Shown in pieces: positions 16,259-37,933 of a DNA stretch of 64,000 bases (positions are counted from its first letter, which is position 1; each line of letters opens with the position of its first letter). A model generated the notes under the pieces. That model saw only the letters and a list, made by a program, of their open reading frames with translations. It was not told the DNA's origin and did no database searches. This DNA is from Pseudohongiella acticola (lineage in GTDB: Bacteria > Pseudomonadota > Gammaproteobacteria > Pseudomonadales > Pseudohongiellaceae), in assembly GCF_001758195.1 (NCBI RefSeq), contig NZ_MASR01000001.1, positions 992,001-1,056,000 on the forward strand, read 5' to 3'. The position numbers were made by a program, and so were the translations under genes.

Positions 16259-16274
16259 GTCCTCAATAGAATTT

Positions 16275-17978: not shown

Positions 17979-18005
17979 TATAGAATCTCCCGCTTCAAGT
18001 CCGAT

Positions 18006-18341: not shown

Positions 18342-18393
18342 GGTTTTTGCCTGATGAATACATATAAAGTTGGCCTCACCTGTTTACTCATAT

Positions 18394-18696
18394 CTAGTTG
18401 ATCGGATCATGAACAGTCACCAGCTTGGTGCCATCAGGAAACGTCGCTTCTACCTGAACCTCGGGAATCATGCTGGCAACTCCATCCATGACCTGATCGA
18501 TAGACAATATTTCTTTCCCGTAACTCATCAGTTCCGCAACAGAGCGACCGTCGCGCGCACCTTCCATGATCTCCATGGAAATCAGTGCCACCGCTTCCGG
18601 GTAATTGAGTTTCAATCCTCGCGCCAGTCTGCGTTCGGCCAGCAGCGCAGCGGTGAAAAGCAGCAGTTTGTCTTTCTCTCTGGGCAGTAGTTCCAT
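18394..18696 (-). CDS. ureA: Urease gamma subunit UreA
   Basis: This 100-residue subunit has the expected opening [16 protein letters not shown], the [23 protein letters not shown]-type helix (about 30-52) and a C-terminal [21 protein letters not shown]. Length matches the family exactly. It precedes ureB; ureD ends 81 bp upstream. Confidence 0.98.
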
Positions 18697-18777
18697 GCTG
18701 TTACTAATAGGTCCCGTCGGTTTATGTTGGCTTAATGATGTTATGCATTTTTCTTGCCACTGTATGAAACCACACAG

Positions 18778-20363: not shown

Positions 20364-21139
20364 GATTCTTCCCCCAGATACACTTCCACCACCGCCGGAT
20401 TGTTTTGCACCTGATCCATTGTGCCTTCGGCGAGCACACTGCCCTGATGAAGCACCGTAACGGTGCGCGCGATACTGCGCACAAATTCCATATCGTGTTC
20501 GACCACTACCACCGTGCGCTCGCCAGCCAGCGAGGTCAGCAACTCTGCGGTTTTTTCGGTTTCCTGCGCCGTCATGCCTGCCACCGGTTCATCAATCAGC
20601 ATCAGCCTGGGGTCGGACACCAGCAACATGCCGATTTCCAGCCACTGTTTCTGTCCATGCGACAGCACACCGGCGGGTTTGTGTCTGAGCGCAGACAGTC
20701 CAATTGTGGTCAGCACGGCATCAATTCGGTCACGCTGCTCCGAGTCCAGTTTCGCCATCAGGGTAAACCACACTCCCTTACCGGTTTTCAGGGACAGCTC
20801 AAGATTCTCTGACACGCTGAGTGCCTCGAACACGGTCGGTTTCTGAAACTTACGCCCGATGCCCAGCCGCGCGATGGCTGCTTCATCATGTTTGAGCAGA
20901 TCCACGGTCTGCCCGAAGTACACCTGTCCACTGTCACAGCGGGTCTTGCCCGTTATCACGTCCATCAGCGTAGTTTTGCCAGCACCGTTGGCGCCTATCA
21001 GGCAGCGCAGTTCGCCATCATTGATATAGAGGCTCAGGTCATTCAGTGCCTTGAAACCGTCGAAACTGACCGATAATGCTTCTATGTAGAGAATGACCTT
21101 ATGCGAGACATCCGGCGCTTTAATTCTACCTGGACTCAT
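20360..21139 (-). CDS. urtD: Urea ABC transporter ATPase UrtD
   Basis: This 259-residue LivG-type ATPase is the second nucleotide-binding subunit of the urea importer. Walker A is GANGAGKTT, the signature LSHGQKQWLEIG, Walker B LMLIDEP with VAGMTAQE, and VVVEHDMEFV contains the switch His. A short N-terminal extension (about 18 residues) precedes the domain. Start and stop both overlap neighbouring urt genes by 4 bp. Confidence 0.96.
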   Translation of the reverse strand: MSPGRIKAPDVSHKVILYIEALSVSFDGFKALNDLSLYINDGELRCLIGANGAGKTTLMDVITGKTRCDSGQVYFGQTVDLLKHDEAAIARLGIGRKFQKPTVFEALSVSENLELSLKTGKGVWFTLMAKLDSEQRDRIDAVLTTIGLSALRHKPAGVLSHGQKQWLEIGMLLVSDPRLMLIDEPVAGMTAQETEKTAELLTSLAGERTVVVVEHDMEFVRSIARTVTVLHQGSVLAEGTMDQVQNNPAVVEVYLGEES

Positions 21140-22287
21140 GATCCAGCCCCCCCTGTCAGCTTCAGCCTGTCATCCTCACCGCTGCTGTCTGACTGTTGCT
21201 TTTTCTTCAGCAAGCCAGCCAGACCTTTGGGCAGGAAAACCGTGACAAAGACAAACAACGCACCCAGCATGAACAGCCAGCTTTCCGGCGCCAGTGAGGT
21301 AAACCGGGTCTTGGCGTAGCTGACCAGGATGGCACCGACCACAGCGCCATAGAGAGTGCCACGGCCACCGACAGCAACCCACACCACGATCTCAATGGAA
21401 TTGACCGGGCTGAACTCGCCCGGGTTAATGATACCTACTTGCGGCGCATACAGGGCACCGGCCAGGGCCGCGATCAATGCCGAATAAACAAACAGCCAGA
21501 CCTTGAAATGATCAGTGCGATAACCCAGAAATCTGGCACGGGCTTCACTGTCACGGATGGATACCAGCACCCGCCCCAGACGCGAGCGCATAATCAACTG
21601 GCTGCTGACAAAAACCAGGCCCAGCAGCAGCGCCGTGATCACGAACAGTCCCACTCGGGTGCTGTCAGCACTGAGCTCAAACCCGGCAATCTCCTTGAAG
21701 TCGGTCAGCCCGTTGTTACCGCCAAAGCCCATCTCATTGCGAAAGAACGCCAGCATCAGAGCATAGGTCAATGCCTGGGTCATGATCGACAGATAAACCC
21801 CTGTGACACGTGACCGGAATGCCAGCCAGCCAAAAACCAGTGCCAGCAGTCCTGGCACCAGACCCACCATCAGCATGGCAAACCAGAGTTGGTCCATGCC
21901 AAACCAGTACCAGGGCAGACTTTCCCAGTTCAGGAACACCATAAAATCAGGGAGATCCGGATTGCCATACACACCCCGATCCCCGATCTGACGCATCAGG
22001 TACATACCCATGGCATAACCGCCCAGCGCGAAGAAGGCACCATGACCGAGACTGAGGATGCCGCAGTAGCCCCAGATCACATCAACCGCCAGCGCCAGCA
22101 TCGCGTAGCACAGGTACTTTCCCAGCAGGGTAATGGTATAGGTGCTGACATGCAGGGCCGAGTTTTCGGGCAACAACAGGTTGGATAATGACGCCAGCAC
22201 GGTGGCTGTAAACAGAACCACAACAAATAGCGTAATGGTATTGCTGCCACGACGCAGTTCGCCCCAGGCATGACCAAGTTGGCTCAT
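21136..22287 (-). CDS. urtC: Urea ABC transporter permease UrtC
   Basis: This LivM-type inner-membrane permease (383 residues, about 9-10 TM helices) has the family signatures AVDVIWGYCGILSLGHGAFFALGGYAMGMYL and GVYLSIMTQALTYAL. The DNPDLPDFMVFLNW-type periplasmic insertion with tryptophans is typical of UrtC. The C-terminus is a charged cytoplasmic tail. It is coupled to urtB upstream and urtD downstream by 4-bp overlaps. Confidence 0.95.
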   Translation of the reverse strand: MSQLGHAWGELRRGSNTITLFVVVLFTATVLASLSNLLLPENSALHVSTYTITLLGKYLCYAMLALAVDVIWGYCGILSLGHGAFFALGGYAMGMYLMRQIGDRGVYGNPDLPDFMVFLNWESLPWYWFGMDQLWFAMLMVGLVPGLLALVFGWLAFRSRVTGVYLSIMTQALTYALMLAFFRNEMGFGGNNGLTDFKEIAGFELSADSTRVGLFVITALLLGLVFVSSQLIMRSRLGRVLVSIRDSEARARFLGYRTDHFKVWLFVYSALIAALAGALYAPQVGIINPGEFSPVNSIEIVVWVAVGGRGTLYGAVVGAILVSYAKTRFTSLAPESWLFMLGALFVFVTVFLPKGLAGLLKKKQQSDSSGEDDRLKLTGGAGS

Positions 22288-23927
22288 TCAGCGGCCCTCC
22301 CTTTCTGTGGAAACAGGCCTTTGGGGCGCACCTGAATAAACAGGATGATAAAGACCAGCGTGATGATCTTGGCCAGCACCGCTCCGGTCATCGGTTCCAT
22401 GAATTTGTTGGCTACGCCGAGCGAGAATGCACCTACCAGCGTGCCCCATAAATTACCGACACCACCAAAAACCACCACCATGAATGAGTCGATGATGTAG
22501 TCTTGCCCCAGATTCGGGCCAACGTTGGTCAACTGGCTGAGCGCTACACCGGCGATACCGGCGATACCGGATCCCAGGCCAAACGTCATCGCATCCACCC
22601 AGTCAGTGCGGATACCCATGGCTTTGGCCATATCACGATTCTGCGAAACCGCGCGTACCTGTAAACCCAACGACGTCTTTCTTAATATCCACAACAGAAT
22701 GACAAACACGATGACTGAAAACAGTAAAATGAACAGCCGGTTGTTGGTAAGTGACAACACCGGATTGATATCCCAGGAGCCACTCATCCAGTCCGGTGAT
22801 ACCACCAGTCGGTTCAAAGGCGAGAAAATCGTTCTGACTGCCTGTTGCAGTATCAGACTGATGCCGAAAGTTGCCAGCAACGTTTCCAGAGGCCGTCCGT
22901 TCAGATATCGAATCACAAACCGCTGGATGAACATGCCAACCAGACCGGACACGGCGAACGCCGTCGGTATGGCAACCCATAACGAATAATTGATGAATTC
23001 CGGCATCAGCATCTGCACCACATAAGTGGTATAGGCGCCCAGCATCAGCATTTCTCCATGCGCCATATTGATGACCCCCATTACACCGAAGGTCACCGCA
23101 AGGCCAATGGCGGCCAGTAACAACACAGAGCCCAGGCTCAGGCCATAAAATGCCTGCTCCATCAATTCATAGAATCGCACTTTACGCTCAATGCTCGCCA
23201 TGGCTGAGGCCATCGCTGAGCGCACCTCTGGATCCTGTTCGTTGCGACCCAGTTCATCGAGAAAACTGCGCAACAGGTTACGCACGGGGCCCTGCAGATT
23301 CCCATGCAAGGTCGCCACGGCCGCAAGCCTGTCAGTCTGTGGTGCATCAGTCACCAGCACATTCATGGCCAGCGCCACATTGATCATGGCCGCGACTGCA
23401 GGTATCTGCTCGTCAGCAATCGCTTCATTCAGCAACACCAGATTATCTTCATCCAGGTCGCTGAGCATGATGCGGGCAGCCTGTTCACGTTCAGCGTCAT
23501 TGCCGTGAACCAGCCTGATCCGCGCCACCGATGCCTGCAGTACCGCACGCAACCTGTTATTGATGCGCACCTGCTCGAGCGCATCTGCATTAATGTCGGT
23601 CAGCACATCACCGTCAAACACATCAGTTAACGTCACCCGGCCGCCGTCGCTCTCGCGGCGTTCGACCAGTTCCAGACTGTCGCTGTGATAATAAAGTGCA
23701 CCGTCCTGCAGGGCCATGAACAGCGGCAACACCGTCCGACCGCCAGCCTGTTCAATCTCAGAGACCAATGACGGCATGCGACGCAGATTGGCATCGGTCA
23801 GTTCCTGCAACAAAGGGGTCAGAGGGTTGTCGTTAGCAGCCACCGTCGACTGCTCTGATTCAGGGGCTTGCTGCGCTGCCGCCAATCGGAAAACGAAGCA
23901 GCAGATCAACAAACAGAGGGTTCTCAC
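22284..23927 (-). CDS. urtB: Urea ABC transporter permease UrtB
   Basis: This 547-residue LivH-type permease carries the long N-terminal periplasmic domain characteristic of UrtB. A signal-like segment (1-18) is followed by about 230 residues containing HEAT-like helical sequence. The membrane domain (about 250-540) then includes GVINMAHGEMLMLGAYTTY and the family GLGSGIAGIAGVALSQLTNVGPNLGQ-type segment. It is 88 bp downstream of urtA. Confidence 0.95.
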   Translation of the reverse strand: MRTLCLLICCFVFRLAAAQQAPESEQSTVAANDNPLTPLLQELTDANLRRMPSLVSEIEQAGGRTVLPLFMALQDGALYYHSDSLELVERRESDGGRVTLTDVFDGDVLTDINADALEQVRINNRLRAVLQASVARIRLVHGNDAEREQAARIMLSDLDEDNLVLLNEAIADEQIPAVAAMINVALAMNVLVTDAPQTDRLAAVATLHGNLQGPVRNLLRSFLDELGRNEQDPEVRSAMASAMASIERKVRFYELMEQAFYGLSLGSVLLLAAIGLAVTFGVMGVINMAHGEMLMLGAYTTYVVQMLMPEFINYSLWVAIPTAFAVSGLVGMFIQRFVIRYLNGRPLETLLATFGISLILQQAVRTIFSPLNRLVVSPDWMSGSWDINPVLSLTNNRLFILLFSVIVFVILLWILRKTSLGLQVRAVSQNRDMAKAMGIRTDWVDAMTFGLGSGIAGIAGVALSQLTNVGPNLGQDYIIDSFMVVVFGGVGNLWGTLVGAFSLGVANKFMEPMTGAVLAKIITLVFIILFIQVRPKGLFPQKGRAAE

Positions 23928-24015: not shown

Positions 24016-25302
24016 TCAGTTGCTTTGTCCTGAACAGGTTTCTGTCACAGTATTAAAATTGCCGCAGCGAACCGGAGCGGTCCAGTCCGACATCAGGTCA
24101 CGGGAACCGGGCAGGAAGTCTGACCAGGCATCACCCGGCACCAGCTCGTCAGTCTCCGACACCACCTGGAATTGGCCATCAGACTGGATTTCTCCAATCA
24201 AAACCGGCTTGGACAAATGATGATTCTTGTTCATCACCGCCATACCGCCCGACAGATTCGGCGTCTCTATGCCGATCATCGCTTGTTCGACAGCATCTAC
24301 GTCCGTGGTGCCCGCTTTCTCGACGGCTCTGACCCACATATTGAAGCCGATGTAGGTGGCCTCCATAGGGTCGTTTGTCACACGACTGGTGTCGCCGATG
24401 AATTCATGCCACTGGGCGATGAAGGCATCGTTTGCAGGTGTATCAACACTCTGAAAATAATTCCACGCGGCCATATGACCGACCAATGGCCGCGAGTCGA
24501 TTCCAGACAGTTCTTCTTCGCCAACAGAAAACGCGATGACCGGAATATCCAGAGACGAAATGCCCTGATTACCGAGTTCACGGTAGAACGGCACATTGGC
24601 GTCACCATTGATGGTTGATACCACGGCAGTCGCTTTACCGGCGCTGCCAAAACGGCTGATATCCGCAACAATACTCTGCCAGTCTGAATGACTGAACGGT
24701 GTGTAGTTGATCATGATATCCGAGTCAGCCACACCCTGATCTTTCAGGTAGGCTTCCAGAATCCGGTTGGTTGTGCGTGGATAAACATAATCGGTTCCCG
24801 CCAGCACCCAGCGCTCGATACCCAGATCATTCATCAGGTAGTCGACGGCCGGAATCGCCTGTTGATTCGGCGCGGCACCGGTGTAGAAAATGTTCTTGGA
24901 TGATTCCTCGCCTTCATACTGCACAGGATAGAACAGCAGGCCATTGAGCTCTTCCAGTACCGGCAGCATGGCTTTACGTGATACCGACGTCCAGGCGCCA
25001 AAAATGACATCTACCTCATCCTGCGCCAGCAGCTGTCGGGTGCGTTCAGCGAACAGCGGCCAATCCGATGCAGGGTCAACTACAACCGCCTCCAGTGGTC
25101 GCCCCAGCACACCGCCTTTCTCATTCTGCGCTTCCACCATCATCAAAACGGTGTCCTTCAATGTGGTTTCGCTGATTGCCATGGTGCCGGACAATGAATG
25201 TAATACCCCGACTTTGATCGGCTCCTGGGCGCCAGCGCCCAGGCTGAAAAGACAGGCAGCAGCAGTGACTATGGTTCGGGATAATAATGAAGTGTTGCGC
25301 AT
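24016..25302 (-). CDS. urtA: Urea ABC transporter substrate-binding protein UrtA
   Basis: The start ATG 25302 is preceded by AAGGAG at suitable spacing and followed by a signal peptide ending LGAGAQ, giving 428 residues; an in-frame upstream extension to 25389 is not supported. The mature protein is a periplasmic type I binding protein: EPIKVGVLHSLSGTMAISE, the YTGAAPNQQAIP region, and ATYIGFNMWVRAVEKAG, all close to characterised UrtA. It captures urea for UrtBCDE. UrtA is commonly under global nitrogen control, but I found no NtrC-type site. Confidence 0.96.
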   Translation of the reverse strand: MRNTSLLSRTIVTAAACLFSLGAGAQEPIKVGVLHSLSGTMAISETTLKDTVLMMVEAQNEKGGVLGRPLEAVVVDPASDWPLFAERTRQLLAQDEVDVIFGAWTSVSRKAMLPVLEELNGLLFYPVQYEGEESSKNIFYTGAAPNQQAIPAVDYLMNDLGIERWVLAGTDYVYPRTTNRILEAYLKDQGVADSDIMINYTPFSHSDWQSIVADISRFGSAGKATAVVSTINGDANVPFYRELGNQGISSLDIPVIAFSVGEEELSGIDSRPLVGHMAAWNYFQSVDTPANDAFIAQWHEFIGDTSRVTNDPMEATYIGFNMWVRAVEKAGTTDVDAVEQAMIGIETPNLSGGMAVMNKNHHLSKPVLIGEIQSDGQFQVVSETDELVPGDAWSDFLPGSRDLMSDWTAPVRCGNFNTVTETCSGQSN

Positions 25303-25383
25303 GATGAGCTCCTTAATAAATCTGATCTCATTTTGGAGATTCAGACGGACTAACAACAAGTCGGCGATTAACCATGATGTCTG

Positions 25384-25395
25384 CGTCAATTGACG
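25384..25395. promoter_or_regulatory. Palindrome upstream of urtA
   Basis: CGTCAATTGACG is a perfect 12-bp palindrome 82 bp upstream of the urtA start, in the 125-bp gap after the HupE-like gene. It could be an operator for an internal urt promoter. It is short enough to occur by chance. Confidence 0.25.
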
Positions 25396-25427: not shown

Positions 25428-26468
25428 TCAGATGCCCATAACCCGTTCAATAGTCCAGAACAGGCCAAGTCCACCGGCGGCAAAGGCACTGGCGCGGATC
25501 ATCTTCTGATCAAGATGGACCTTGCGCATCAACAGCAACAGCAACAGCACTGTCATGACAAACATGAGCTGTCCGATCTCGACGCCGACATTAAAAAACA
25601 ATAGCGCCACAACCGTATCCGCCGCCGACACGCCGAGGCCGCCAAGCACACTGGCGAACCCGAGACCATGAATCAGACCGAAGCCTGTGGTGATACCTAT
25701 GCGCCATCTGAATGAGGTTTCCGCACTGCGCTGCACTGCCTGTGGGTTATTGTCAGCCCGATGCGCCAACAGGGCTTCGCGTGCCATAAAAACAACAGAC
25801 AGAGCGATGATGGCTTCTACCGGGACGATAGGAACGTTAACAACACCCAGATAGGCCAGTGCGAGAGAGATTGAGTGACCCAGAGTGAACGCCGAGATGA
25901 GCCACAACAAACCAGTGCCACGTGCCATCATGGCCAGACAAAGCACAAATGCCAGGTGGTCGAGTCCGATCAGAACATGTTCGGTACCCAGCATCAGGTA
26001 ACGCCACGCAGTCAGCAGAAAGCCATCAGGCTCCTGTGCCGCCGCAGCAGTCCAGTCAGGCAGACTGAATTCGGCACCAACGCGTCCACCAGATAACATG
26101 GTGGACGCCACGCTGCCATCAAGCAGATGCAGCTCCAGCATGCCCCCGTCGCGGCCCCAGCGGGTCCGGATCAATCCACTGCTGGTTTCATCACAGGTGA
26201 CGTCAAAGCTCACCGTGACAGCGTTGGTAGACTCAAGACGCTCATCACGTTCCAGAACAGAGCACCCTTCCGGCCAGATGACCGGCAGCTCGGCGTCCAG
26301 ATTGACTGGCAGATTGGCATCGAATCGAAACCAGAGCCCTTCATCTTCGACGTTCTGTTGTACCAGTGTAAATTGGGCAAGGTCCAGGTAATGCGCGACG
26401 GCGACCGGGAATGACATCAGCAACAACAGGGCCCCTGCCAGCTGCCATCGCAAACGTTTAACCACCAC
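25428..26468 (-). CDS. HupE/UreJ-family membrane protein, probable nickel/cobalt permease
   Basis: This 346-residue protein has a signal peptide ending PVAVAH, a periplasmic beta-rich domain (about 27-155) and then six or seven TM helices. HupE/UreJ metal motifs are visible in the membrane part: GTEHVLIGLDHLAF, FTLGHSISLALA, FGLIHGLGFAS and FNVGVEIGQ, with several intramembrane His. Family members import Ni2+ or Co2+ for hydrogenase or urease. The position between the exported ureohydrolases and the urea/urease genes supports nickel supply. The start overlaps the PpiC gene by 11 bp. Confidence 0.85.
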   Translation of the reverse strand: MVVKRLRWQLAGALLLLMSFPVAVAHYLDLAQFTLVQQNVEDEGLWFRFDANLPVNLDAELPVIWPEGCSVLERDERLESTNAVTVSFDVTCDETSSGLIRTRWGRDGGMLELHLLDGSVASTMLSGGRVGAEFSLPDWTAAAAQEPDGFLLTAWRYLMLGTEHVLIGLDHLAFVLCLAMMARGTGLLWLISAFTLGHSISLALAYLGVVNVPIVPVEAIIALSVVFMAREALLAHRADNNPQAVQRSAETSFRWRIGITTGFGLIHGLGFASVLGGLGVSAADTVVALLFFNVGVEIGQLMFVMTVLLLLLLMRKVHLDQKMIRASAFAAGGLGLFWTIERVMGI

Positions 26469-27303
26469 TTGCTCCTAATACAATCGTGAAGCGCTCTTTA
26501 ATGGTTTCGGTACGGGCGCTGACATTCTGACGCCGGTGATGCGCGGACCAGTCCTGATCCAGACGCTCGCGCACGGCCTTATAAGGCATCAGTTCCGGCT
26601 CTCCTTTATGGCTTACTCGGGCAAAGTGAAAGCCTCGTACCGATTCAACCGGCCCCACCCACTGATCGACAGGCGCCGATTTGAGGGTTTCATAGAACTC
26701 GCCGCCAAAGCTGCTGCGTAAAATACTCTCCGAATAGCTGTTAAGATTCTTGCCAAGCCAGAAAGGCTCACCTTCAACCGTACTCCCTGCCTTCAACGTT
26801 GTCAGAACCTCATCAGCATCAGCGGGCAGCTCTTCGAAGTACACTTGAGTAAAGCTCAGGGTAGGTTCGGTGTAATAGGACTCCATATTCTCCATGTAAA
26901 AGTCGAGCAGCTCGGCCTCATCTACCGGTTCAGGAGAGCCGGCCCACAACATACGGACTTTTTCTACCAGATGGGCGCGCATCTTGCTGTCACTCAGGTG
27001 CATCTGCTGCGCCAGCGCTTCACGAAACAGCACTTCTTCATCAACCCACTCTGAGATCAGCAACTGTGTTTCTGCTTCAGATGGCTGACGCCCTTCCAGC
27101 CAGGCGAAATTTTCCTGCAGCATCGCAACTGTTGCATCATCAATGACCACGACGTCTCGGTCACCGGCCGCCATTGCGTCACTGGTGTCGCTATTGCCGG
27201 ACCAGGCGTTGTAGGCAAAGATGACAACCGCTACCAAGGCAAATATTGACAACGGCTCGGTCAGAAGCTTTCTGCTTTTTTCGGCCACTTTAATGTCACT
27301 CAT
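26458..27303 (-). CDS. Membrane-anchored PpiC/parvulin-type peptidyl-prolyl isomerase
   Basis: This 281-residue protein has one TM anchor (about 17-34, LSIFALVAVVIFAYNAW) and a periplasmic body. A SurA/PrsA-like helical region includes WVDEEVLFREALAQQMHLSD, and a rotamase-like domain spans about 145-250 (TLSFTQVYFEELP, DQWVGPVESVRGFHFARVSHK). It probably assists folding of exported proteins. It sits directly after the four exported ureohydrolases and overlaps the HupE-like gene, so clients could be either. Confidence 0.8.
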   Translation of the reverse strand: MSDIKVAEKSRKLLTEPLSIFALVAVVIFAYNAWSGNSDTSDAMAAGDRDVVVIDDATVAMLQENFAWLEGRQPSEAETQLLISEWVDEEVLFREALAQQMHLSDSKMRAHLVEKVRMLWAGSPEPVDEAELLDFYMENMESYYTEPTLSFTQVYFEELPADADEVLTTLKAGSTVEGEPFWLGKNLNSYSESILRSSFGGEFYETLKSAPVDQWVGPVESVRGFHFARVSHKGEPELMPYKAVRERLDQDWSAHHRRQNVSARTETIKERFTIVLGASGG

Positions 27304-27372: not shown

Positions 27373-28779
27373 TCAGTTCTGCCCGTGATCCACGGTCACC
27401 GGATCCAGATAACTGTCATCGTCCAGACCCAGCTTGCGCATGGCGACACCACTCAGGCAGGTGTTCATCATGTAGTTGGCATTCATCGCACTGACATAGC
27501 TCAGGTCCAGCATCGGTGCCAGGTCCATGATTTCGAATCCTGCAATCTGCGTCTCTGCACATAACCTACGCAATAAAGGTGCCAGCTCTCGAATTGTCAG
27601 GCCGCCAGCAGCCGCCCGGCCAGCGGCACGCAATTGCGCTGGATCAATGACACTGACATCAAGCGAAATATAGACGCGATCAGTAGCAGACTTGGCCTCG
27701 TCGATAATGCGCGCTGCCACAGCATCCCAGCCATGGCGCTCCACTTCGGCCATGGTGTGGTATCTAACGCCCTGTTCGCGCAACCACTGAAATGCTGCCG
27801 GCGTTGCCTGCGAACCACGCAGCCCAACCTGAATCACATTGCCACCTTCCACCACGCGCTCCGTGATCAGGCGATAGACAGCATCACGATCAGACAGAAA
27901 ATGTGCACGCGTGGGCTCGGCGTTATAATTTGCACCAAAATGAATCACGGTCAGCGCTTCGTCTGCCTCATTGTCTTGCACTGCTTTAACTGTCGGATAC
28001 ATCAAGGAATGATCGCCGCCAACAATGAAGGGGATGGCACCGGCCTCAGCAATTTCCATGATGCGCTGGTAGACATGCTCCATGCCCCGATGCACACTCA
28101 TGCGGTCGACCGCAACATCCCCATAGTCAACAACATTCAGTGTCGCCAGCGGATCTACCATGGAGTAAACGTCGCGCTCGCCCAGAATATGCATACTGCG
28201 AATCGCCTCTGGCGCATTGCGGGCGTCACGGGCACCACTGCTCATACTTTGTGGTATGCCTACAATTGCCACCTCAACATCGCCGGCGATGAGATCGGCC
28301 TGATCGATGGCGACCAGAGCACCGGCAAAGGTTGGAATGCCGCCCCACTGGTGAACATAACGATGCACACTGAAAGGGCCGGGCTCACGCAGGTATTCAT
28401 TGAGCGCTTGCGGCCGCACCACCTTGAAGCCGTTAAAGCTGCTGGCTTCCGGGTTCAATGGAATCTGCGCCATGTCGACACCGGGGCGAAAGGCCATCGC
28501 TTCAACCGCCATCATCATGTCGGCGACAAACTGTTCTATCTGCCCCGGGTTTCTTCGCTCCAGCTCCTGGTTCAGCTTTTGTCGCGTCGGGATAACACGC
28601 AAGGGCTGAAATCCACGGAGAAAATCAATCTGCTCGTCGCTCAGACCACTCAGTTTGCTCATGATTTGTGGCGGTATGTCAGCCTCGGCCTGCTGTGCAA
28701 AACTGCTGGTGGGTGCTGCGACGAACAGCATCCAAAGCGTCATTACGGCCAACAGCCGACAGGGTAGTGTCCGCATCAT
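27373..28779 (-). CDS. Exported ureohydrolase pseudoenzyme, type A copy 1
   Basis: This 468-residue arginase/agmatinase-family protein has a signal peptide ending TSSFAQQ and a family-wide N-terminal extension of about 120 residues. The ureohydrolase fold is clear (IVGGDHSLMYP with His256; GGLTIREL). Of the six standard metal ligands, four are replaced: the DAHxD motif reads GANYN (Gly282, Asn284, Asn286), and the DVD motif reads DVS (Asp374 kept, Ser376). It is therefore predicted unable to form the dinuclear centre. It is coupled by ATGA to the intact type B gene upstream and has a GAGGAG site. A structural or regulatory partner role is inferred. Confidence 0.85.
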   Translation of the reverse strand: MMRTLPCRLLAVMTLWMLFVAAPTSSFAQQAEADIPPQIMSKLSGLSDEQIDFLRGFQPLRVIPTRQKLNQELERRNPGQIEQFVADMMMAVEAMAFRPGVDMAQIPLNPEASSFNGFKVVRPQALNEYLREPGPFSVHRYVHQWGGIPTFAGALVAIDQADLIAGDVEVAIVGIPQSMSSGARDARNAPEAIRSMHILGERDVYSMVDPLATLNVVDYGDVAVDRMSVHRGMEHVYQRIMEIAEAGAIPFIVGGDHSLMYPTVKAVQDNEADEALTVIHFGANYNAEPTRAHFLSDRDAVYRLITERVVEGGNVIQVGLRGSQATPAAFQWLREQGVRYHTMAEVERHGWDAVAARIIDEAKSATDRVYISLDVSVIDPAQLRAAGRAAAGGLTIRELAPLLRRLCAETQIAGFEIMDLAPMLDLSYVSAMNANYMMNTCLSGVAMRKLGLDDDSYLDPVTVDHGQN

Positions 28780-30203
28780 TGTGGATTCTCCTCAACGTAG
28801 TTGTCCTGCGCATGATCAATGGTTACCGGGTTCAGATAATCGATGTCATGCCCCAACTTTCGCATCGCAACACCCACCAGGCAGGCTTTGATGATGGCGG
28901 CACTGTGCAACGCTGTTGTATACCCCGGATCCAGTGCCGGCGCTATTTCGACAATATCGAAACCTATCAGCTCTTGCTGGGCGCAGAGTTTACGCACAAT
29001 CGGGATTGCTTCGCGCGGTGTCAGACCGCCGGAAACCGGCGTACCGGTGCCGACAATATAGGAAGGATCGAGCACATCGACATCGAAGGAGATATGCAGT
29101 TTGCGCCCATCACGTTTGGCTTCATCAAGCACTCGCTGCATGACATAGTCCCAACCATAACGCTCGACCTCGGCCATTGAGTGGTATTTGAAGCCTTGCT
29201 CCTGCATCCAGCGATAGCCACTTTCGCTGGGCCCGCCAGAGCGCAGCCCGACCTGTATGTAGTCGCTGCCGGTGATGTGGTTATCCCGCATCAGACGGTA
29301 AATCGGCTGCCCGTGTGAGATGTGATGAGGGCTGTCGCCCATTCCCACGTCATGATGTGCATCAAAGTGAATAACACTGACATTGCCTTTGCCGTAGACA
29401 TCCACCAGCCCCGCCACATTGGGGTATTCCAGTGAATGGTCGCCGCCGACTATCAAGGGTATGGCACCGGTTTCGGCAATTTCCCGCACCACTTCCCGAA
29501 CATGCTGCATGCTGCGTTCAGTGCTGTCGTTGTCAATGGCGATATCACCATAATCGACAATATTCAATTCACGACTGGGGCTGATCTGGGTGTATTGATC
29601 GTTACCCGCCATACCACCGGTGGTACGCATTACCAGAGGGCCATAACCGGCGTCGCGCCAGCCTGAGCCCATGTTCAAGGGCGCGCCTACAATGGCCACT
29701 TCGACCTCCCCGGCAATCAGGTCTTCAGGAGTCAGCGCCACCGGTGCGCCGGCAAACGTTGGGATACCCCGGGCCAGACTGACGGGTCCCGGCTCGCGCT
29801 CCGGGTCAAAGCTTCTGGGTCGGCGCACCATCCAGGCATTAAAATCCGGCGATTCGGTATTCAGTGGCAACCACGCCATGTCACGACCCTGCACAAAGCC
29901 GGTCTGGTCTTCTACCCACATCATGGCATCAACATAGGCAACGACCTGTTCAGCCGAGCGCTTCTCCAGCGCGGCAATCAGATCTTCCGTGGTAGACGCG
30001 TATCGGCGAGTCTTGCTGCTGTCTTTCAGGTACGCGAGCTGCACGTCAGTCAGCACCGACAACTTAGCGTCCAGTGATGCGGGAAACTCGACAACTGCTG
30101 TTCTCTCTTCCGCGTCGTCTTGCTGCGCCAATGCGGCTGACATGGCAGTGCTGATAGCCACCACCAGAGCAATGACGCCGAACATTTTTGTACTATTCTT
30201 CAT
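28776..30203 (-). CDS. Exported arginase/agmatinase-family ureohydrolase, type B copy 1
   Basis: The start ATG 30203 is chosen because AGGA precedes it at good spacing and a signal peptide ending SAALAQ follows; an upstream TTG-initiated frame to 30242 is less likely. The 475-residue product has all six metal ligands of the family: His256 (GGDHS), Asp281, His283 and Asp285 (DAHHD), Asp374 and Asp376 (SFDVDVLDP). Such enzymes cleave guanidino groups to urea plus an amine; candidates are agmatine, arginine, guanidinobutyrate or guanidine. It is far longer than cytosolic agmatinases (about 300 residues) because of the N-terminal region. The metal could be manganese or nickel. Confidence 0.92.
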   Translation of the reverse strand: MKNSTKMFGVIALVVAISTAMSAALAQQDDAEERTAVVEFPASLDAKLSVLTDVQLAYLKDSSKTRRYASTTEDLIAALEKRSAEQVVAYVDAMMWVEDQTGFVQGRDMAWLPLNTESPDFNAWMVRRPRSFDPEREPGPVSLARGIPTFAGAPVALTPEDLIAGEVEVAIVGAPLNMGSGWRDAGYGPLVMRTTGGMAGNDQYTQISPSRELNIVDYGDIAIDNDSTERSMQHVREVVREIAETGAIPLIVGGDHSLEYPNVAGLVDVYGKGNVSVIHFDAHHDVGMGDSPHHISHGQPIYRLMRDNHITGSDYIQVGLRSGGPSESGYRWMQEQGFKYHSMAEVERYGWDYVMQRVLDEAKRDGRKLHISFDVDVLDPSYIVGTGTPVSGGLTPREAIPIVRKLCAQQELIGFDIVEIAPALDPGYTTALHSAAIIKACLVGVAMRKLGHDIDYLNPVTIDHAQDNYVEENPQ

Positions 30204-30238
30204 ACCGGATTCCTGTTGCCAAGTCGTAAAAGCAGCCA

Positions 30239-31636
30239 TCAATTCTGACCATGGTCCACCGTCGTGGGATCAAGGTAGTTCTCGTCGGTGATCCCCTGCT
30301 TACGCATGGCAATACCCGTCAGACAGGCGTTGAGCATGTAATTCGCGTTCATGGCACTGACGTAACTCAGATCCAGCATGGGCGCAAAGTCCATTAGCTC
30401 AAGGCCGGCAACGTCATTCTCAGCGCACAGACGTCTGAGCAGCGGTGTGATTTCCCGGATGGTCAGACCACCGGGCACTGCCCGGCCTGCGGCGGTCAGC
30501 TCGGTCGGATCAAGCACACTGACATCGAGAGAGATATACAGTGGATTACGCGCATCCTCTGCTTCCTCCAGAACAGCCGCCATGACTTCCTGCCAACCGT
30601 TCACTTCTACGGATGCCATGGTGTGATACCTGACCTCGTTGTCGCGCAGCCATTCGAATGACGCCTTGTTTGCCTGCGATCCACGCAGGCCTACCTGTAT
30701 CAGGTTTTCACCTTCTATGACGCCTTCTGACACCAGGCGGTAAACCGCATCGCGGTCTGAAATCGTGTGCGCGCGGGTAGGCTCGGCATTGTAATTGGCA
30801 CCAAAATGCACCACCGTCAGCGACTGCTCCGCATCGGACATCTGCACCGCTTTCACATTGGGGTACATCAGGGAGTGGTCCCCACCAATCAGAAAAGGCA
30901 CCGCACCGGTATTGGCTATCTCCAGTACCATGTCGTAGACATGATCCAGCCCGCGCTCCAGGCTCATCCTGTCGACCGAGATGTCGCCATAGTCAACGAT
31001 ATTAAGGACAGCGCCGGGGTCAACCATGGCATAAACATCCAGATTGCCGGCCACATGCATTGCCCGCAACACGTTGGGTGCATTGCGGCCGTCACGACTA
31101 CCGCTGCTCATGCTTTGCGGAATACCGGCAATCGCTACCTCCACATTGCCCGCGACCAGGTCTTCGGGGGTGACCGCAACAGGTGCACCGGCGAAAGTAG
31201 GGATACCTGCCCATTGATTGATATAACGATGCACATTGACGGGTCCCGGATCACGCAGGCGCTCCTTCAGGATCTCCGGCTGCACAACTTTAAAACTGTT
31301 GAACCGGCTGGCTTCAGGGTTCAGCGGTATTTCTGCCATGTCGATGCCGGGCCGATAAGCATGTGCTTCGACTGCATCGATCATGTCACTGACGTACTGC
31401 TGAACTTGCTCAGGCGTTCGACGCTCAAGATCCTGGTACAGCTTCTCCCGCGTCGCAATCACGCGCATCGGTTGTTCTGTGCCCAGAAAAGCAACCTGCT
31501 CTTCTGTTAACAATTCAAATTTGGCTCTGATATCAGCGGGAATACGAGCCTGGGCTAATGCCATTGCGGAATAGGCAGACACAAGCACACTCAGGGCCAG
31601 CGCCGACATAAGGTGACATCCAGTCCTGTGTATCAT
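30239..31636 (-). CDS. Exported ureohydrolase pseudoenzyme, type A copy 2
   Basis: This 465-residue protein is a close paralogue of the 27373-28779 product. The signal peptide ends SAMALAQ. The ureohydrolase scaffold is retained (GGDHSLMYP with His254; GGLTIREITP), but the same four metal ligands are lost: Gly279, Asn281 and Asn283 in HFGANYN, and Ser373 in SLDVSVLDP. Identical losses in two copies indicate that the degenerate form is old and maintained, not random decay. The ATG overlaps the stop of the upstream type B gene (ATGA at 31633-31636), consistent with stoichiometric production of a pair. Confidence 0.85.
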   Translation of the reverse strand: MIHRTGCHLMSALALSVLVSAYSAMALAQARIPADIRAKFELLTEEQVAFLGTEQPMRVIATREKLYQDLERRTPEQVQQYVSDMIDAVEAHAYRPGIDMAEIPLNPEASRFNSFKVVQPEILKERLRDPGPVNVHRYINQWAGIPTFAGAPVAVTPEDLVAGNVEVAIAGIPQSMSSGSRDGRNAPNVLRAMHVAGNLDVYAMVDPGAVLNIVDYGDISVDRMSLERGLDHVYDMVLEIANTGAVPFLIGGDHSLMYPNVKAVQMSDAEQSLTVVHFGANYNAEPTRAHTISDRDAVYRLVSEGVIEGENLIQVGLRGSQANKASFEWLRDNEVRYHTMASVEVNGWQEVMAAVLEEAEDARNPLYISLDVSVLDPTELTAAGRAVPGGLTIREITPLLRRLCAENDVAGLELMDFAPMLDLSYVSAMNANYMLNACLTGIAMRKQGITDENYLDPTTVDHGQN

Positions 31637-33099
31637 GGCGCATTCTCCTCGTTGTTCTGCTCGTGGTTCTGAACGTGATAGTCGTCCTGTGCGTGATCAA
31701 TGGTGATCGGGTTCAGGTAGTCCGGATCAAAACCCAGCTTGCGCATGGAAACGCCAATCAGACAGGCCTGCACGATCGCGGCGCTGTGCAGGTTGGTGAC
31801 ATAGGTCGGATCTATTTCTGGCGCAATCTCAACAATGTCGAAACCGACAACCTCCTGCTGTGCACATAACTTGCGAATGATGGGAATGGCTTCGCGCGGT
31901 GTCAGTCCGCCGGAAACCGGCGTACCCGTGCCAGCGATATACGAAGGGTCCAGCACATCAACGTCGAAGGAGATGTGCAGCTTGCGGCCATCGGCCTTGG
32001 CTTCGCTGAGTATTCTTTCCAGCACATAATCCCAGCCATAGCGTTCAACCTCAGCCATGGAATGATATTTGAACCCCTGTTCACGCATCCATTTGTAGCC
32101 ACTTTCACTGGGACTGCCAGAGCGCAGACCGACCTGGATGTAGTCACCGCCTTTTATGTGGCCATCTGCCAACAGGCGATAGATAGGCTGACCGTGATCG
32201 ATAAAGTGGGCGCGGTCTCGACCTACGTCGTAATGAGCATCAAAGTGAATCACACTGAGATTGTCTTCGCCGTAAACATCGACCAATGCTGCGACGTTGG
32301 GATATTCCAACGAATGATCACCGCCCACAATAAACGGTACGGCGCCGGTTTCTGCAATCTCCCGTACAATCTCACGCACGTGCTGCATGCTGCGCTCGGT
32401 GCTGTCCTGATCAATGGCTATGTCGCCGTAGTCGACAATATTCAGCTCGCGGCTGGGGCTGATCTGGGTGTACTGGTCGTTACCACCGACCCGACCAATC
32501 AGTCGCAGAGCCAACGGACCGTGTTGAGCACCACGCCAGCCAGAGCCCATGTTCAGGGGGGCACCAACGATGGCGACATCAACGTCGCCGGCAATCAGAT
32601 CTTCAGGCGTCAGTGCGATGGGTGCGCCAGCAAAGGTTGGAATACCACTACGACCACCATAACGGGACAGGTCGATAGGCCCCGGCTCGCGATCGGGATC
32701 AAAACTACGCGGTCGGCGTACGGCATAGGCATTAAAGTCCGGGCTATCCGTATTCAGCGGGATATGATCAAGGTCCACGCCTTCCTGAAACGCTTGCTGC
32801 TCTGTCACCCAGATCATGGCATCAACATAGGCGCGCACCTCAGGCGCTGTGCGTTTTTCAAGCGCTTCAATCAACAACTCTGGAGTACTGGCAAACCGGC
32901 GCGTGGGACCGGTGCTTAAAAACTCCATTTCAGCTTCGGTGAGCGTGGACAGTTTTTCGTCCAGCGAGCTCGGGAATTCGATAGGTTCACGTTCTTCTTC
33001 GTCATCATCCTGTGCCAGCAGTGGTATCGACAGGGTGTACATAAGCAACCCGATTGCTGCCAGGGTTATACGAGATATGCATGTCTGTGTTGTTTTCAT
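31633..33099 (-). CDS. Exported arginase/agmatinase-family ureohydrolase, type B copy 2
   Basis: This 488-residue protein is the first of the four ureohydrolases in the direction of transcription, with AAGGA upstream of ATG 33099. A signal peptide ending SIPLLAQ is followed by a very acidic mature start, DDDEEEREP. Metal ligands are complete: His262, Asp287, His289, Asp291, Asp379 and Asp381. The substrate-specificity region GTGTPVSGGLTPREA is typical of agmatinase-like enzymes. The C-terminus carries a polar Asn/Gln/Glu-rich tail. It is predicted to be the catalytic partner of the type A protein that follows it. Confidence 0.92.
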   Translation of the reverse strand: MKTTQTCISRITLAAIGLLMYTLSIPLLAQDDDEEEREPIEFPSSLDEKLSTLTEAEMEFLSTGPTRRFASTPELLIEALEKRTAPEVRAYVDAMIWVTEQQAFQEGVDLDHIPLNTDSPDFNAYAVRRPRSFDPDREPGPIDLSRYGGRSGIPTFAGAPIALTPEDLIAGDVDVAIVGAPLNMGSGWRGAQHGPLALRLIGRVGGNDQYTQISPSRELNIVDYGDIAIDQDSTERSMQHVREIVREIAETGAVPFIVGGDHSLEYPNVAALVDVYGEDNLSVIHFDAHYDVGRDRAHFIDHGQPIYRLLADGHIKGGDYIQVGLRSGSPSESGYKWMREQGFKYHSMAEVERYGWDYVLERILSEAKADGRKLHISFDVDVLDPSYIAGTGTPVSGGLTPREAIPIIRKLCAQQEVVGFDIVEIAPEIDPTYVTNLHSAAIVQACLIGVSMRKLGFDPDYLNPITIDHAQDDYHVQNHEQNNEENAP

Positions 33100-33249: not shown

Positions 33250-36200
33250 TCACAGGGCCACATTGATACCCAGATAGTAAGCTCGGCCAACCGGGCTGAC
33301 CGGATAACTACGCTCAGTGGCGAAGGGCTTTTCATCGGTCAGGTTGCTGACACCGCCATAGATCCGTACGGTAGAGCTGTAGTCCCAGTTGCCTGACAAG
33401 TTGTGAGAAAAGAACTCATCCGTAAAGATGCCAGGACCATAGTTCTGAACTGCGGTTTCGATGGGACCGGTCAGCGCCATTTCACTCAGGTACTGGGATC
33501 GCAGAGAAACACTGAACGGACCGGTGGCAACACTGAAGTTCAATTGCCCTGCCCACTCTGGACGATTCATTTCCATCAGATCATCGTCGACCACCGCTTC
33601 TTCACCCGGGTTTGACGGTTCAATGAACTCCAGTTCAAGCTGCTTCGTTACTGCGCCACCCAGACCTATCTGATAATCGCCGATATTAAAACCGTAGTTA
33701 ACATTGAGGTCGACACCCGTTGCCTTGGCTTCACCGAAGTTAAGCTGTACCTGACGCAGGAAAGTAAAACCGCCTGACTGCGCGGACGTTGGTTCGCGGT
33801 TACGATCCAGCAGTTCACAGAACGGGTTGTCCAGTGAAGGTGAGTCGTAACAACTGGTGGCAATGTTCTGCGCCGATATTTCCGAGATGGCGTCTTCGAT
33901 CACGATATCCCAGTAATCCAGGCTGACTGTCAACCCTTCGATGAAACGCGGCTGCACAACAACACCAAAGGTCTTGGTAATTGCCTCTTCCGGCTCAAGG
34001 TCGGGGTTACCACCAATAACACCTGGGAAACCAGCTGATAGCGGATCCACAAATATGTAGTTGCCGCTGGCGTCAAAGATATTCTCGTTCGGGACATTTT
34101 TTGACTGAAGGTCTGCAACACAGTTGTTCTGACGCGTTGTTGGATTTGGAGCGCTGCTCAGCTGCGAAACATCACAAGGGTCATTCGGGCGGAAGTTTTG
34201 ACCCTGCTCCGGGGAAAACAGTTCGAACAGGTTTGGCACTCGAACCGCTTTACTGTAATTGGCGCGGAAACGAATATCCTGAACCGGCGCCCAAAGACCA
34301 CCCACTTTAAAGGTATCACTTTCACCGAAGGTTGAATAATCCGCCCGACGGAAAGCACCGTCCAATGTCAGCGTTTCGATCAGGGGCAGGTTACTGAGCA
34401 ATGGGATTTCAAACTCACCAAAGATGTCCCACACGTCGTAGCTCGCGCTGGTGCTCAATGCGCGGTTGCCGGGCGAACCACCAAGACTCTGGGCATTGCT
34501 TACGTCACCGATCCAGTCGCCCGCCTCAAACGCAACGCCATCAACAGTCACACCACTGACCGGCAGGACGCCCTGGTCATAGCTGTCATACTCTTGTGCA
34601 CTGGTCTCTTCACGCCACTCACCGCCAAAAGCAAAGGAAACCGGGCCGGCAGGCAAGGTAAAGAACTCACTGCTATTACCGCTGACAAAGCCGCTGATAA
34701 CAGATTGCTCAATTTCTTCCTTAACGGTGCGTGTGTAAGTGAAGAAGTCGATGGACTCCTGACTGATTGATCCCTTACCACCAAAAAGGTTGGCGGGCTG
34801 GCACTGACCATCACCTGGCTGGAAGCTGAAGAATGATGATAATGCACCACCGCCCAGATAGGCAGGGAAGTTGAACGGGGTCGTTCTCGGGTAGGCCGTT
34901 GCGCTAAGATCGGAACGACATACAGGCTGGCCAGTCGCCGGATCGGTGGTGACGTCAATTGCCGCAAAAAAACGATCGGTAATCGGCGTGAACGGTGATT
35001 TGTAATGACGATTGAATTTACCGTAGTTGGCTGCCACTTCGTAGTCCAGGCCCCATTGATCAAGGCTGCCACGCAAACCGCCAACGAAACGAACGGTGGT
35101 GCGACGGTTGACGGATTCGTTGTCACCCCAGTCATCAGAGTCGCGGTTGATGTACAAACCGCCAGGACCGACAAAACCTACACCAGGATTATTGGCAAAC
35201 GAGGCCAACTGACTTGGCAGGAAGGGGTTATCAGGTGCAGCATACAACAGGTCGGTAGCCTGATTGCCGCCGCCACCAAACACTACTTCGTGATACACAT
35301 ACTTGGTTTCCGCAAACAACTCCATTGTCGGCGACAGCTCATAACGACCATTGAGGTTGATCGAGTATTTGTCGTCTTGCGGTATGACAAATGGCCGGTT
35401 CGGAGCAATATAGCTTTGCGCCGCACCAAACTGGTTGAAGTTACCCGTGACCAGACCGTCCTCATAAGAAACCAGCTCCCCAGCTTCATTTATGACCCAG
35501 CAGCCACCAACTGCGCCGTACGATCCTGCGCCATCCAGACTGGAATTGTAACCGGTAAAGCTGTCCAGACAGTCGGAGGTGCCATTACCATTAAGGTCAG
35601 GCTCCTGCCCCAACGGTACCGAGGTACCAAAGTCGCCCAGCGCGACAACGCCGTAGGGTGAGGTAATGTTAAAAGTTCTGCCGGGCAAAAGCGCGCGTGG
35701 ACTTGACGTTGAGGGTCGGTCAAACAATGCCTGCTCTGCGGCGGTCAGCGTAGGTGCGGTACCGAATTCGTTCTGATAATTGCTGGCAAAGGTAGCGGCA
35801 CTTGGAATTCGCAGGCCGTAGGGAAACAGGCCGGTGTTGTTGAAATTGTAATATTGCGCAAGGTTAGGCGTGTTAGCCGCGGTAATATCGCCCTGCTGGA
35901 AGCGAAACGCCGGGTTTACATCACCTGTGGCCCGTCCGTCATTGGCAAGAAAACTACGATCTCCCGCTCGCAGACCATCGCTGGAGTCATGCTGTAACGA
36001 CACGGTAAAGTTACCGCGATTGTCATCAAAATTCTGACCAATCAATGCACGCAGGCTCAGCGTATTGGCATCGCCTTCACCCGATATACCCGTGCGAAAA
36101 TCAATATCTACACCTTCGTAATCGTCGCGCAACACAAAATTGACAACACCCGTGACCGCATCAGCACCATAAACTGCCGAAGCACCACCAGTGAGCACTT

Positions 36201-36675
36201 CAACACGTTCGATCAATGCCGAAGGAATGGTTGAGACATCCACTGAGGATGTACCTTCAATCCCAGAGACGTGGCGGCGGCCATTGACCAGTGTCAGCGT
36301 TCGCTGCGAACCCAGGGAGCGCAAATTCAAAGCACTGCCACCAACGTTGCTGGAGCGGGTGCTGTTGGCAGCAGTACCACCGATTGAGTTTGTGCTGGTA
36401 ACCGATGACAGCAACGCCGGGTTCTCGTTCAGTATCTCACCAATATCCACGGTGGCCGAACTGGACAGGTCTTCTGCGCTAATAACAGACAATGGCTGTG
36501 TGGAGGTCGCATTGTCTACGCGCTGGATGCGGCTGCCGGTGACAACCAGCTCTTCGATAACAGGTGTGTCCGATTGTTGTGCGTAGGTAAACGGTGTTGA
36601 GGCAACGCCCGCCAACATGGCGATCGCAACAGTGAGACGACGTCGTGCAAAGGAATTGTGTGGCTTCGTGTTCAT
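33250..36675 (-). CDS. TonB-dependent outer-membrane receptor (1141 aa)
   Basis: The signal peptide ends FTYAQQ, and the TonB box region reads IEELVVTGSRI. The plug contains LRSLGSQRTLTLVNGRRHV and VEVLTGGASAVYGADAVTGVVNF. The very large barrel with long loops ends YYLGINVAL. The LVNGRR type corresponds to large receptors of unknown or peptide-like substrates. It is the first gene of a co-directional run leading through exported ureohydrolases to urea import and urease, so a guanidino-containing ligand such as an arginine-rich peptide or derivative is plausible (inference). Confidence 0.93.
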   Translation of the reverse strand: MNTKPHNSFARRRLTVAIAMLAGVASTPFTYAQQSDTPVIEELVVTGSRIQRVDNATSTQPLSVISAEDLSSSATVDIGEILNENPALLSSVTSTNSIGGTAANSTRSSNVGGSALNLRSLGSQRTLTLVNGRRHVSGIEGTSSVDVSTIPSALIERVEVLTGGASAVYGADAVTGVVNFVLRDDYEGVDIDFRTGISGEGDANTLSLRALIGQNFDDNRGNFTVSLQHDSSDGLRAGDRSFLANDGRATGDVNPAFRFQQGDITAANTPNLAQYYNFNNTGLFPYGLRIPSAATFASNYQNEFGTAPTLTAAEQALFDRPSTSSPRALLPGRTFNITSPYGVVALGDFGTSVPLGQEPDLNGNGTSDCLDSFTGYNSSLDGAGSYGAVGGCWVINEAGELVSYEDGLVTGNFNQFGAAQSYIAPNRPFVIPQDDKYSINLNGRYELSPTMELFAETKYVYHEVVFGGGGNQATDLLYAAPDNPFLPSQLASFANNPGVGFVGPGGLYINRDSDDWGDNESVNRRTTVRFVGGLRGSLDQWGLDYEVAANYGKFNRHYKSPFTPITDRFFAAIDVTTDPATGQPVCRSDLSATAYPRTTPFNFPAYLGGGALSSFFSFQPGDGQCQPANLFGGKGSISQESIDFFTYTRTVKEEIEQSVISGFVSGNSSEFFTLPAGPVSFAFGGEWREETSAQEYDSYDQGVLPVSGVTVDGVAFEAGDWIGDVSNAQSLGGSPGNRALSTSASYDVWDIFGEFEIPLLSNLPLIETLTLDGAFRRADYSTFGESDTFKVGGLWAPVQDIRFRANYSKAVRVPNLFELFSPEQGQNFRPNDPCDVSQLSSAPNPTTRQNNCVADLQSKNVPNENIFDASGNYIFVDPLSAGFPGVIGGNPDLEPEEAITKTFGVVVQPRFIEGLTVSLDYWDIVIEDAISEISAQNIATSCYDSPSLDNPFCELLDRNREPTSAQSGGFTFLRQVQLNFGEAKATGVDLNVNYGFNIGDYQIGLGGAVTKQLELEFIEPSNPGEEAVVDDDLMEMNRPEWAGQLNFSVATGPFSVSLRSQYLSEMALTGPIETAVQNYGPGIFTDEFFSHNLSGNWDYSSTVRIYGGVSNLTDEKPFATERSYPVSPVGRAYYLGINVAL

Positions 36676-37907: not shown

Positions 37908-37933
37908 GGAAATTTCCTTGGTGTTGACCCCTG

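Follow-up and report, generated by a model that had tools for sequence, protein, structure and literature searches.

According to the accessible extracts of the published work, ureohydrolases of the metformin hydrolase type need an inactive ureohydrolase subunit for activity (PMC11271267, PMC11399263). In the same extracts this non-catalytic subunit is MetCb, MfmB or MefH-beta, and the active subunit is unstable or inactive without it (PMC11271267, PMC11399263, PMC11647477); the heteromeric ureohydrolases with a dead subunit described there so far come from the metformin/dimethylguanidine lineage (PMC11271267, PMC11399263). Here we analyse a 64,000-nucleotide stretch of the Pseudohongiella acticola genome (the window; contig NZ_MASR01000001.1, positions 992,001 to 1,056,000), which encodes two tandem pairs of arginase-family proteins, each pair with one intact and one degenerate member. 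We call the degenerate member A and the intact member B, so that our A corresponds to the published MfmB, MetCb or beta, the opposite letter; L and G numbers are locus and genome labels. Our comparisons indicate that A is a conserved pseudoenzyme tied to B. On balance, from sequence and by analogy, we favour the reading that a B-A pair is a periplasmic hetero-oligomeric ureohydrolase, with the released urea imported and split in this genus.

Conserved pairs of degenerate and intact ureohydrolases

The four genes are transcribed on the minus strand in the order B1 (33099-31633), A1 (31636-30239), B2 (30203-28776), A2 (28779-27373), and encode:

31633..33099, minus strand: B1, predicted exported ureohydrolase, ligands HDHDDD, first gene of pair 1 (Pfam, alignment, ligand table)
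30239..31636, minus strand: A1, predicted exported pseudo-ureohydrolase, ligands HGNNDS, with His141 to Asp, Asp234 to Ser, Thr246 to Arg and Glu277 to Asp (alignment)
28776..30203, minus strand: B2, predicted exported ureohydrolase, six ligands intact (Pfam, alignment, ligand table)
27373..28779, minus strand: A2, predicted exported pseudo-ureohydrolase, ligands HGNNDS, signature as in A1 (Pfam, alignment, AlphaFold2/Foldseek)

An earlier note, made from this DNA alone, had read four tandem arginase-family proteins here, those at 27373-28779 and 30239-31636 having lost four of six metal ligands and the other two having kept all six. Both observations hold. The open reading frames (ORFs) are at these positions, and all four proteins match the Pfam family Arginase, PF00491, with expect values (E) of 1.4e-45 to 2e-72, above the Pfam cut-off. 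The six ligand positions, which we take to be His101, Asp124, His126, Asp128, Asp232 and Asp234 in arginase numbering, read H-D-H-D-D-D in both window B proteins and H-G-N-N-D-S in both window A proteins (alignment, ligand table), which retain only His101 and Asp232. A2 is 65% identical to A1 and 43% identical to each B. In both pairs the B stop overlaps the A start in an ATGA, with GAGGAG upstream. The start of B2 is ambiguous, TTG 30242 and ATG 30239 being possible alternatives to ATG 30203, which follows an AGGA and whose signal peptide looks the better one by eye; a permissive script chose ATG 30239.

The 3.6 Mb genome holds seven arginase-family genes: the four in the window, a single short gene with agmatinase-like features elsewhere (L009), and one further pair (L008) about 1.37 Mb from the window, in which A3 precedes B3. 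The ligands of A3 are T-S-H-D-D-S, so that the losses differ within one genome.

Searching GTDB genomes with a profile built from three A proteins gave 32 loci, all of them titled as metagenome-assembled, including Pseudohongiella, Woeseiaceae, Lysobacterales, Chromatiales and Paraglaciecola (taxonomy from record titles). A plasmid search gave one record with a long match, from Novosphingobium sp. RL4, and 18 stretches from congeneric genomes were added. After removal of eight duplicate loci and the agmatinase locus L009, 96 rows of at least 380 residues were labelled by ligand state, 48 with HDHDDD as B (including the solitary L033) and the 48 others as A. The uniformity of B in the six ligands is thus by construction of the labels, and the reality of the groups rests on the trees described below. 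The N-termini of the window A and B translations resemble, by eye, Sec signal peptides ending in A-Q, that of B1 being MKTTQTCISRITLAAIGLLMYTLSIPLLAQ. The signal-peptide script was permissive, with an internal pick for the third A gene, and its count (44 of 48 A and 45 of 48 B with a signal peptide, four A and two B being cut by contig edges) is not used as evidence.

The earlier note had proposed a search for degenerate and intact genes co-occurring as neighbours, and such co-occurrence is seen. A same-strand B adjoins 46 of the 48 A genes (at most 200 bases between stop-to-stop frames), the remaining two being unassessable at contig edges, and no A was found without B (0/48). Among the 46 neighbours 45 are full-length and one (L021) is a B-like start cut by the contig end. 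As the loci were found with the A profile, this count tests A without B and not B without A. The pairs are rare at an A-profile E of at most 1e-60, with the best four or five candidates per genome scored: the class sample gave one of 369 genomes (this one), the phylum sample two of 398 (this one and G704, which is solitary) and the order sample seven of 293 (three genus members with pairs and four genomes with one solitary-type match). A tandem of ureohydrolases on Mesorhizobium ciceri pMc1284 (L061, 6013-8028), adjoining an amino-acid ABC transporter and a urea-carboxylase-associated gene, was rejected as an A/B-type pair: both genes are intact in their ligands and fall outside this clade.

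For the trees, one truncated A and any row that matched another at 85% identity or more were removed. Maximum-likelihood analysis of 89 rows without the six ligand columns gave an A clade of 29 rows (support 100/99) and a B clade of 26 (94/72) within an A+B clade (100/97) that stood next to two solitary intact homologues; MfmA and MfmB paired elsewhere. A second tree, with more solitary rows, 18 distant rows dropped and both ligand and TGTP-loop columns removed, again recovered A (29 rows, 100/100) and B (25 rows, 99/97), with solitary intact lineages outside, and supported A and B as sisters weakly (82/44). Forcing A together with MfmB was rejected by the approximately unbiased (AU) test (p-AU 3.35e-11), with MfmA and MfmB on long branches and model error possible. 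The trees and this test argue strongly against descent of A and B from the Mfm lineage.

Pairwise ratios of nonsynonymous to synonymous change (dN/dS) among four genus genomes were 0.044-0.074 for A1, 0.046-0.075 for A2 and 0.050-0.074 for A3, and 0.024-0.044 for B1, 0.028-0.074 for B2 and 0.041-0.086 for B3. These values are rough, as synonymous sites are near saturation in most pairs; the 0.044 of A1 rests on few changes, and the B1 range leaves out the window against L047 (0.306 at dS 0.02). They place A under purifying selection comparable with that on B. Adjacency to B, low dN/dS and a single clade together argue that A is a maintained pseudoenzyme, and A probably arose once. Window B1 and A1 (30239-33099) are separated from their L047 (G011) counterparts by dS of only 0.02 and 0.04, and B2 and A2 lie far apart at 0.80 and 1.39; pair 1 may have passed between lineages as one block.

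The active site of the degenerate member

Columns conserved to at least 90% in each group were compared between 29 A rows and 32 B and solitary rows. Only six separate the groups: H302D, M338L, D381S, T391A, T393R and E424D (B1 numbering). From the arginase motifs we take four of these to be His141, Asp234, Thr246 and Glu277, where His141 is the proton shuttle, Asp234 a metal ligand and Glu277 the residue that binds guanidinium; T391, a fifth, lies within the TGTP loop that holds Thr246. In all 29 A rows His141 is replaced by Asp, Asp234 by Ser and Glu277 by Asp, Thr246 is replaced by Arg in 28 and by Lys in one, and Asp232 is retained. None of the 32 B and solitary rows has lost any of these four residues. 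His141 and Glu277 are kept in 25/25 B and 7/7 solitary rows, as are the six ligands, by which B was labelled; D381S is accordingly partly a product of the labels, and the other five columns are not.

The remaining A ligands drift among the rows. Ten complete patterns occur in the 48 A rows (one of which is truncated): TSHDDS in 22, HGHNDS in seven, HGNNDS in six, FGHNDS and HGHDDS in three each, ASHNDS in two, and NGNNDS, HDHGDS, TGHDDS and TNHDDS once each. At the extremes, the Novosphingobium A (HDHDDS, outside the 48-row count) keeps five of six ligands and the NGNNDS protein of L011 keeps one. The A proteins of type II loci, in which A precedes B and most are TSHDDS, keep His126, Asp128 and Asp232. 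As the same replacements occur in all A rows while the other ligands drift, the dead site has been remodelled and held rather than just eroded, and this includes the basal A with five of six ligands.

The earlier note had concluded from identical losses in the two window copies that the degenerate form is maintained. The copies are indeed identical and A is maintained, but the pattern is not shared by the third pair or by most relatives, and the note's GANYN motif gives way, as the fixed feature of A, to the four-residue active-site signature.

AlphaFold2 single-chain models of A2 (mean predicted local distance difference test, pLDDT, 71.3 from an 18-row alignment) and B1 (70.5 from a 16-row alignment) had arginase-family structures as their best Foldseek matches in the Protein Data Bank (PDB), with E of 3.6e-22 and 4.9e-22 respectively, and a helical N-terminal part of mixed confidence before the core. 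Our guess is that Arg246 of A sits where the metals were. Two arginase-family proteins in L080 and L075 (G021, G030) align as GDQDDD and have an altered TGTP loop; these are possibly another degenerate group.

The gene cluster and its probable link to urea use

The Pseudohongiella pairs share their strand with genes for a TonB receptor, PpiC, HupE/UreJ, UrtABCDE and urease. The window contains:

33250..36675, minus strand: TonB-dependent receptor of 1141 residues, directly upstream of B1, candidate outer-membrane substrate importer (PF00593, PF07715)
26458..27303, minus strand: PpiC-type peptidyl-prolyl isomerase, probably membrane-anchored (by eye; PF13145, synteny)
25428..26468, minus strand: HupE/UreJ family protein, candidate nickel permease, the function being taken from the family name only (PF13795, synteny)
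24016..25389, minus strand: UrtA, urea ABC transporter binding protein (TIGR03407, above cut-off)
22284..23927, minus strand: UrtB permease (TIGR03409, above cut-off)
21136..22287, minus strand: UrtC permease (TIGR03408, above cut-off)
20360..21139, minus strand: UrtD ATPase (TIGR03411, above cut-off)
19671..20363, minus strand: UrtE ATPase (TIGR03410, above cut-off)
14274..19674, minus strand: urease genes ureD, A, B, C, E, F and G (named by reading translations)
16275-17978, minus strand, within the urease genes: UreC-like protein (sequence search, 9 of 15 genus genomes)
13053..14015, plus strand: LuxR-type response regulator adjoining the kinase, start codon not settled (domain scan; synteny in L058 and L060)
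9560..12979, plus strand: hybrid sensor kinase with a long membrane domain (HisKA, HATPase_c, Response_reg)

The order TonB-B-A-B-A-PpiC-HupE-Urt-Ure recurs in congeners over the stretches covered, with B-A-B in L045 and L046. A/B pairs occur in nine of the 15 genus genomes, this one included, and these nine are precisely the ones in which a UreC search detected urease (in G005 as a fragment of 161 residues where a contig begins). The same nine and G001 carry the sensor kinase. As the 15 genomes are related, these co-occurrences are not independent events. This neighbourhood suggests that Pseudohongiella generates urea beyond the inner membrane and takes it up from there. The earlier note had described neither the neighbourhood nor this route. 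G001 carries what looks like a relic of the cluster (L058, 6503-7159 and around), which still has the kinase, the regulator, the TonB gene and 219 residues of a B but neither A genes nor UreC, as if the cluster had lost its middle. On the Novosphingobium plasmid a pair and one more intact gene are accompanied by urease, two sets of PpiC and HupE, and kinase and regulator homologues, with no Urt match within the 31 kb covered.

The kinase with its LuxR regulator might sense the guanidino substrate or urea. For the kinase's membrane domain, about 570 residues, there was no convincing family in Pfam (E up to 10), NCBIfam or the PDB. By eye it resembled NCS1; this is not claimed, as Pfam gave only a weak unrelated match at residues 506-535 of the piece searched. 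The nickel-related genes of the cluster are HupE/UreJ (by Pfam) and ureEFG (by reading); hypAB was not noticed on reading the window ORFs, and no hidden Markov model search aimed at it was made. A solitary ureohydrolase, L092 588-1418 (G966), is apparently followed by a PpiC-like gene, as judged by eye, and the association with the isomerase may predate the A/B split.

Two further features were seen. An Rfam 5_ureB_sRNA match (17543-17825, plus strand, 87 bits) lies antisense within ureC and may reflect conserved coding sequence rather than a small RNA gene. Upstream of the TonB gene, at 37263-38503 on the minus strand, are two tandem small proteins with export-like N-termini, one with a YceI domain.

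Proposed function of the pairs and comparison with known ureohydrolases

In the mechanism that we infer for the pair, from export (signal peptides by eye) to complex formation, B would carry a dinuclear metal site (Mn or Ni) and would hydrolyse a guanidino compound in the periplasm to urea and an amine, the substrate probably entering through the TonB receptor. A would be a metal-free partner with a remodelled active site in which Asp232 is kept; its conserved Arg and a carboxylate network would probably replace the metals, so that A could fold and pack against B. On the model of MetCb, A would stabilise B and might also cover or mould the substrate pocket of B. In Pseudohongiella UrtABCDE would then bring in the released urea for the neighbouring urease to split. 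Nickel would be handled by HupE/UreJ and UreEFG, and PpiC would help the exported proteins to fold. The role given to the Arg is part of this proposal, as are the place of the reaction, the direction of the pathway and the class of substrate.

Several observations weigh against this picture. The earlier note had held that clusters routinely lacking A would speak against an obligate pair. Looked for from the A side only, such clusters did not appear, but solitary intact homologues without A do exist: L033, L088, L092-L095 and one gene of L060 (14779-16416), with ligands intact in 7/7. Of these only L033 is an intact row without an adjoining A in the 96-row count, L088 and L092-L095 coming from the genome searches; in Novosphingobium, too, one intact gene stands apart from the pair. 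These relatives suggest that a lone B-like protein can stand alone. For the proposed A-B complex the available models are single chains of mediocre confidence, and the A2 loop that holds the signature Arg (384-389) has pLDDT below 50. No guanidine riboswitch was found in the window at the gathering threshold, or in 13000-41000 at E up to 1, and riboswitch control of the cluster was dropped as a candidate. Of the six genus genomes with neither A/B nor urease, two have incomplete assemblies (85% and 72%).

The link to urea is also narrower than the pair itself. Type I pairs outside the genus (L014-L017, L036 and L041, with L015, L016 and L017 covering 8 to 10 kb on one side) had no TonB, PpiC, HupE or urease match, and no Urt match except a weak UrtD-like one in L041. 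None of the 23 type II loci had urease or Urt, and only L035 among them had PpiC and HupE homologues. Ureohydrolases aside, no neighbouring protein cluster was common to more than five of 32 loci examined for pairs outside the window's cluster, a weak test given the spurious ORFs in GC-rich loci. The conserved unit thus appears to be the pair, and the urea-import link a feature of the genus as far as seen.

The alternative that survives best keeps the hetero-oligomer and changes its substrate. The main substrate could be larger, an arginine-containing peptide or a guanidino natural product imported through TonB, with urea as a by-product. The 1141-residue receptor directly upstream and the separate agmatinase-like gene elsewhere in the genome (L009) fit this, and other arginase-family enzymes reportedly use peptides (PMC10028609). 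In the genus, though, the same strand goes on to the urea importer and urease, which fits urea as a wanted nutrient, and we regard a larger main substrate as a somewhat unlikely alternative.

It is less probable that A acts alone, as a periplasmic binding or sensor protein for a guanidino compound, urea or another ligand, without a stable complex with B, for instance by handing substrate over to B or the membrane sensor kinase. The fixed Asp/Asp/Ser/Arg/Asp set shows that the dead site is not random, and within the genus the cluster is accompanied by a sensor kinase that has a large membrane domain. But A adjoins B wherever this could be assessed, also where no strong sensor or transporter homologue was seen, and a cationic substrate would probably be repelled by an Arg facing the former guanidinium site. 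Less probable again, and in our view quite doubtful, is an A with a different chemistry or a single metal ion: the patterns TSHDDS and HDHDDS do keep several ligands, but none of the 29 A rows, the basal one included, retains His141, Glu277 or Asp234, and the window A proteins have only two ligands left. That A is a functionless decaying duplicate carried by the operon, as the drifting ligands, an A gene apparently broken into fragments in one congener (L059) and one A fewer in the B-A-B congeners (L045, L046) might suggest, is very improbable given purifying selection like that on B, adjacency, the fixed signature and a single clade that spans several gammaproteobacterial groups and the Novosphingobium plasmid.

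The reading of the pair as a periplasmic hetero-oligomer that yields urea can be carried further. The pair would then be a second, independent enzyme-pseudoenzyme ureohydrolase in which a selected Arg246/Asp141/Asp232/Asp277 network replaces the metals, and Pseudohongiella would have an undescribed pathway that frees urea from guanidino compounds beyond the inner membrane, made up of the pair with receptor, isomerase, nickel permease, urea importer, urease and its own sensor kinase; we put this fuller version forward tentatively. A second origin, with a graded series of ligand loss from five of six kept in Novosphingobium to one of six in L011, would bear on why dead partners are recruited and on what replaces a lost metal cluster. 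The gene order of the genus predicts a route for extracellular guanidino nitrogen, with hydrolysis outside the inner membrane followed by urea import; if true, this would add an exported step to guanidine metabolism. The open-access literature matches listed included no exported or periplasmic ureohydrolase pairs, no Pseudohongiella with such genes and no description of the solitary ureohydrolases.

These solitary proteins are the nearest relatives of the pair and have intact ligands and, by eye, export-like N-termini, but they have no adjoining A (for L092-L095 within a flank of only about 1.5 kb; in L060 the pair lies about 10 kb off). Among solved structures, the guanidinobutyrase, guanidinopropionase and agmatinase entries (3nio, 3nip, 4dz4) are among the closest in sequence to B and share its HG and TGTP motifs; unlike B they are shorter, have no N-terminal extension and fall in a different clade. 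These are single-gene enzymes. GdmH, or guanidinase (7esr, 9fek), which hydrolyses guanidine, has the arginase fold and is among the best PDB matches in sequence and fold, but it is a single active gene, lies outside the A/B clade and groups with Mfm (98/79). To our knowledge it is not exported in known cases.

The closest likeness is to MfmAB, MetCaCb, MefH and DmgH of Pseudomonas and Aminobacter, which like A and B are encoded by tandem genes, one with six ligands and one degenerate. Those enzymes are nickel-dependent alpha2beta4 hexamers; A and B were modelled as single chains. There are also differences. In our alignment the ligands of MfmB read RGQDNN, and MfmB keeps Glu277 and does not have the Asp141/Ser234/Arg246 set of A. 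MfmA groups with MfmB and then GdmH, whereas A groups with B (weakly in the second tree). The Mfm subunits have 348-357 residues and do not have the long N-terminal part of A and B. Their genes adjoin hypAB, whereas the window pairs adjoin PpiC, HupE/UreJ, Urt and urease. A HupE/UreJ gene does stand directly after mfmB in Pseudomonas hydrolytica KHPS2 (NZ_CP100554, L063 45036-45719), a parallel to the window that hints at nickel. By BLAST, A1 and A2 are 21.2% and 23.3% identical to MfmB and some relatives lie just above 25% (L014, 25.2%), the identity cut-off that the accessible part of a published survey of 56 pairs gives (PMC11271267). The earlier note had named metformin hydrolase as the precedent. 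It is the right analogue, as far as the extracts of PMC11271267 and PMC11399263 go, but A and B are not of the Mfm lineage by the AU test, and the likeness seems to be one of design, not of descent.

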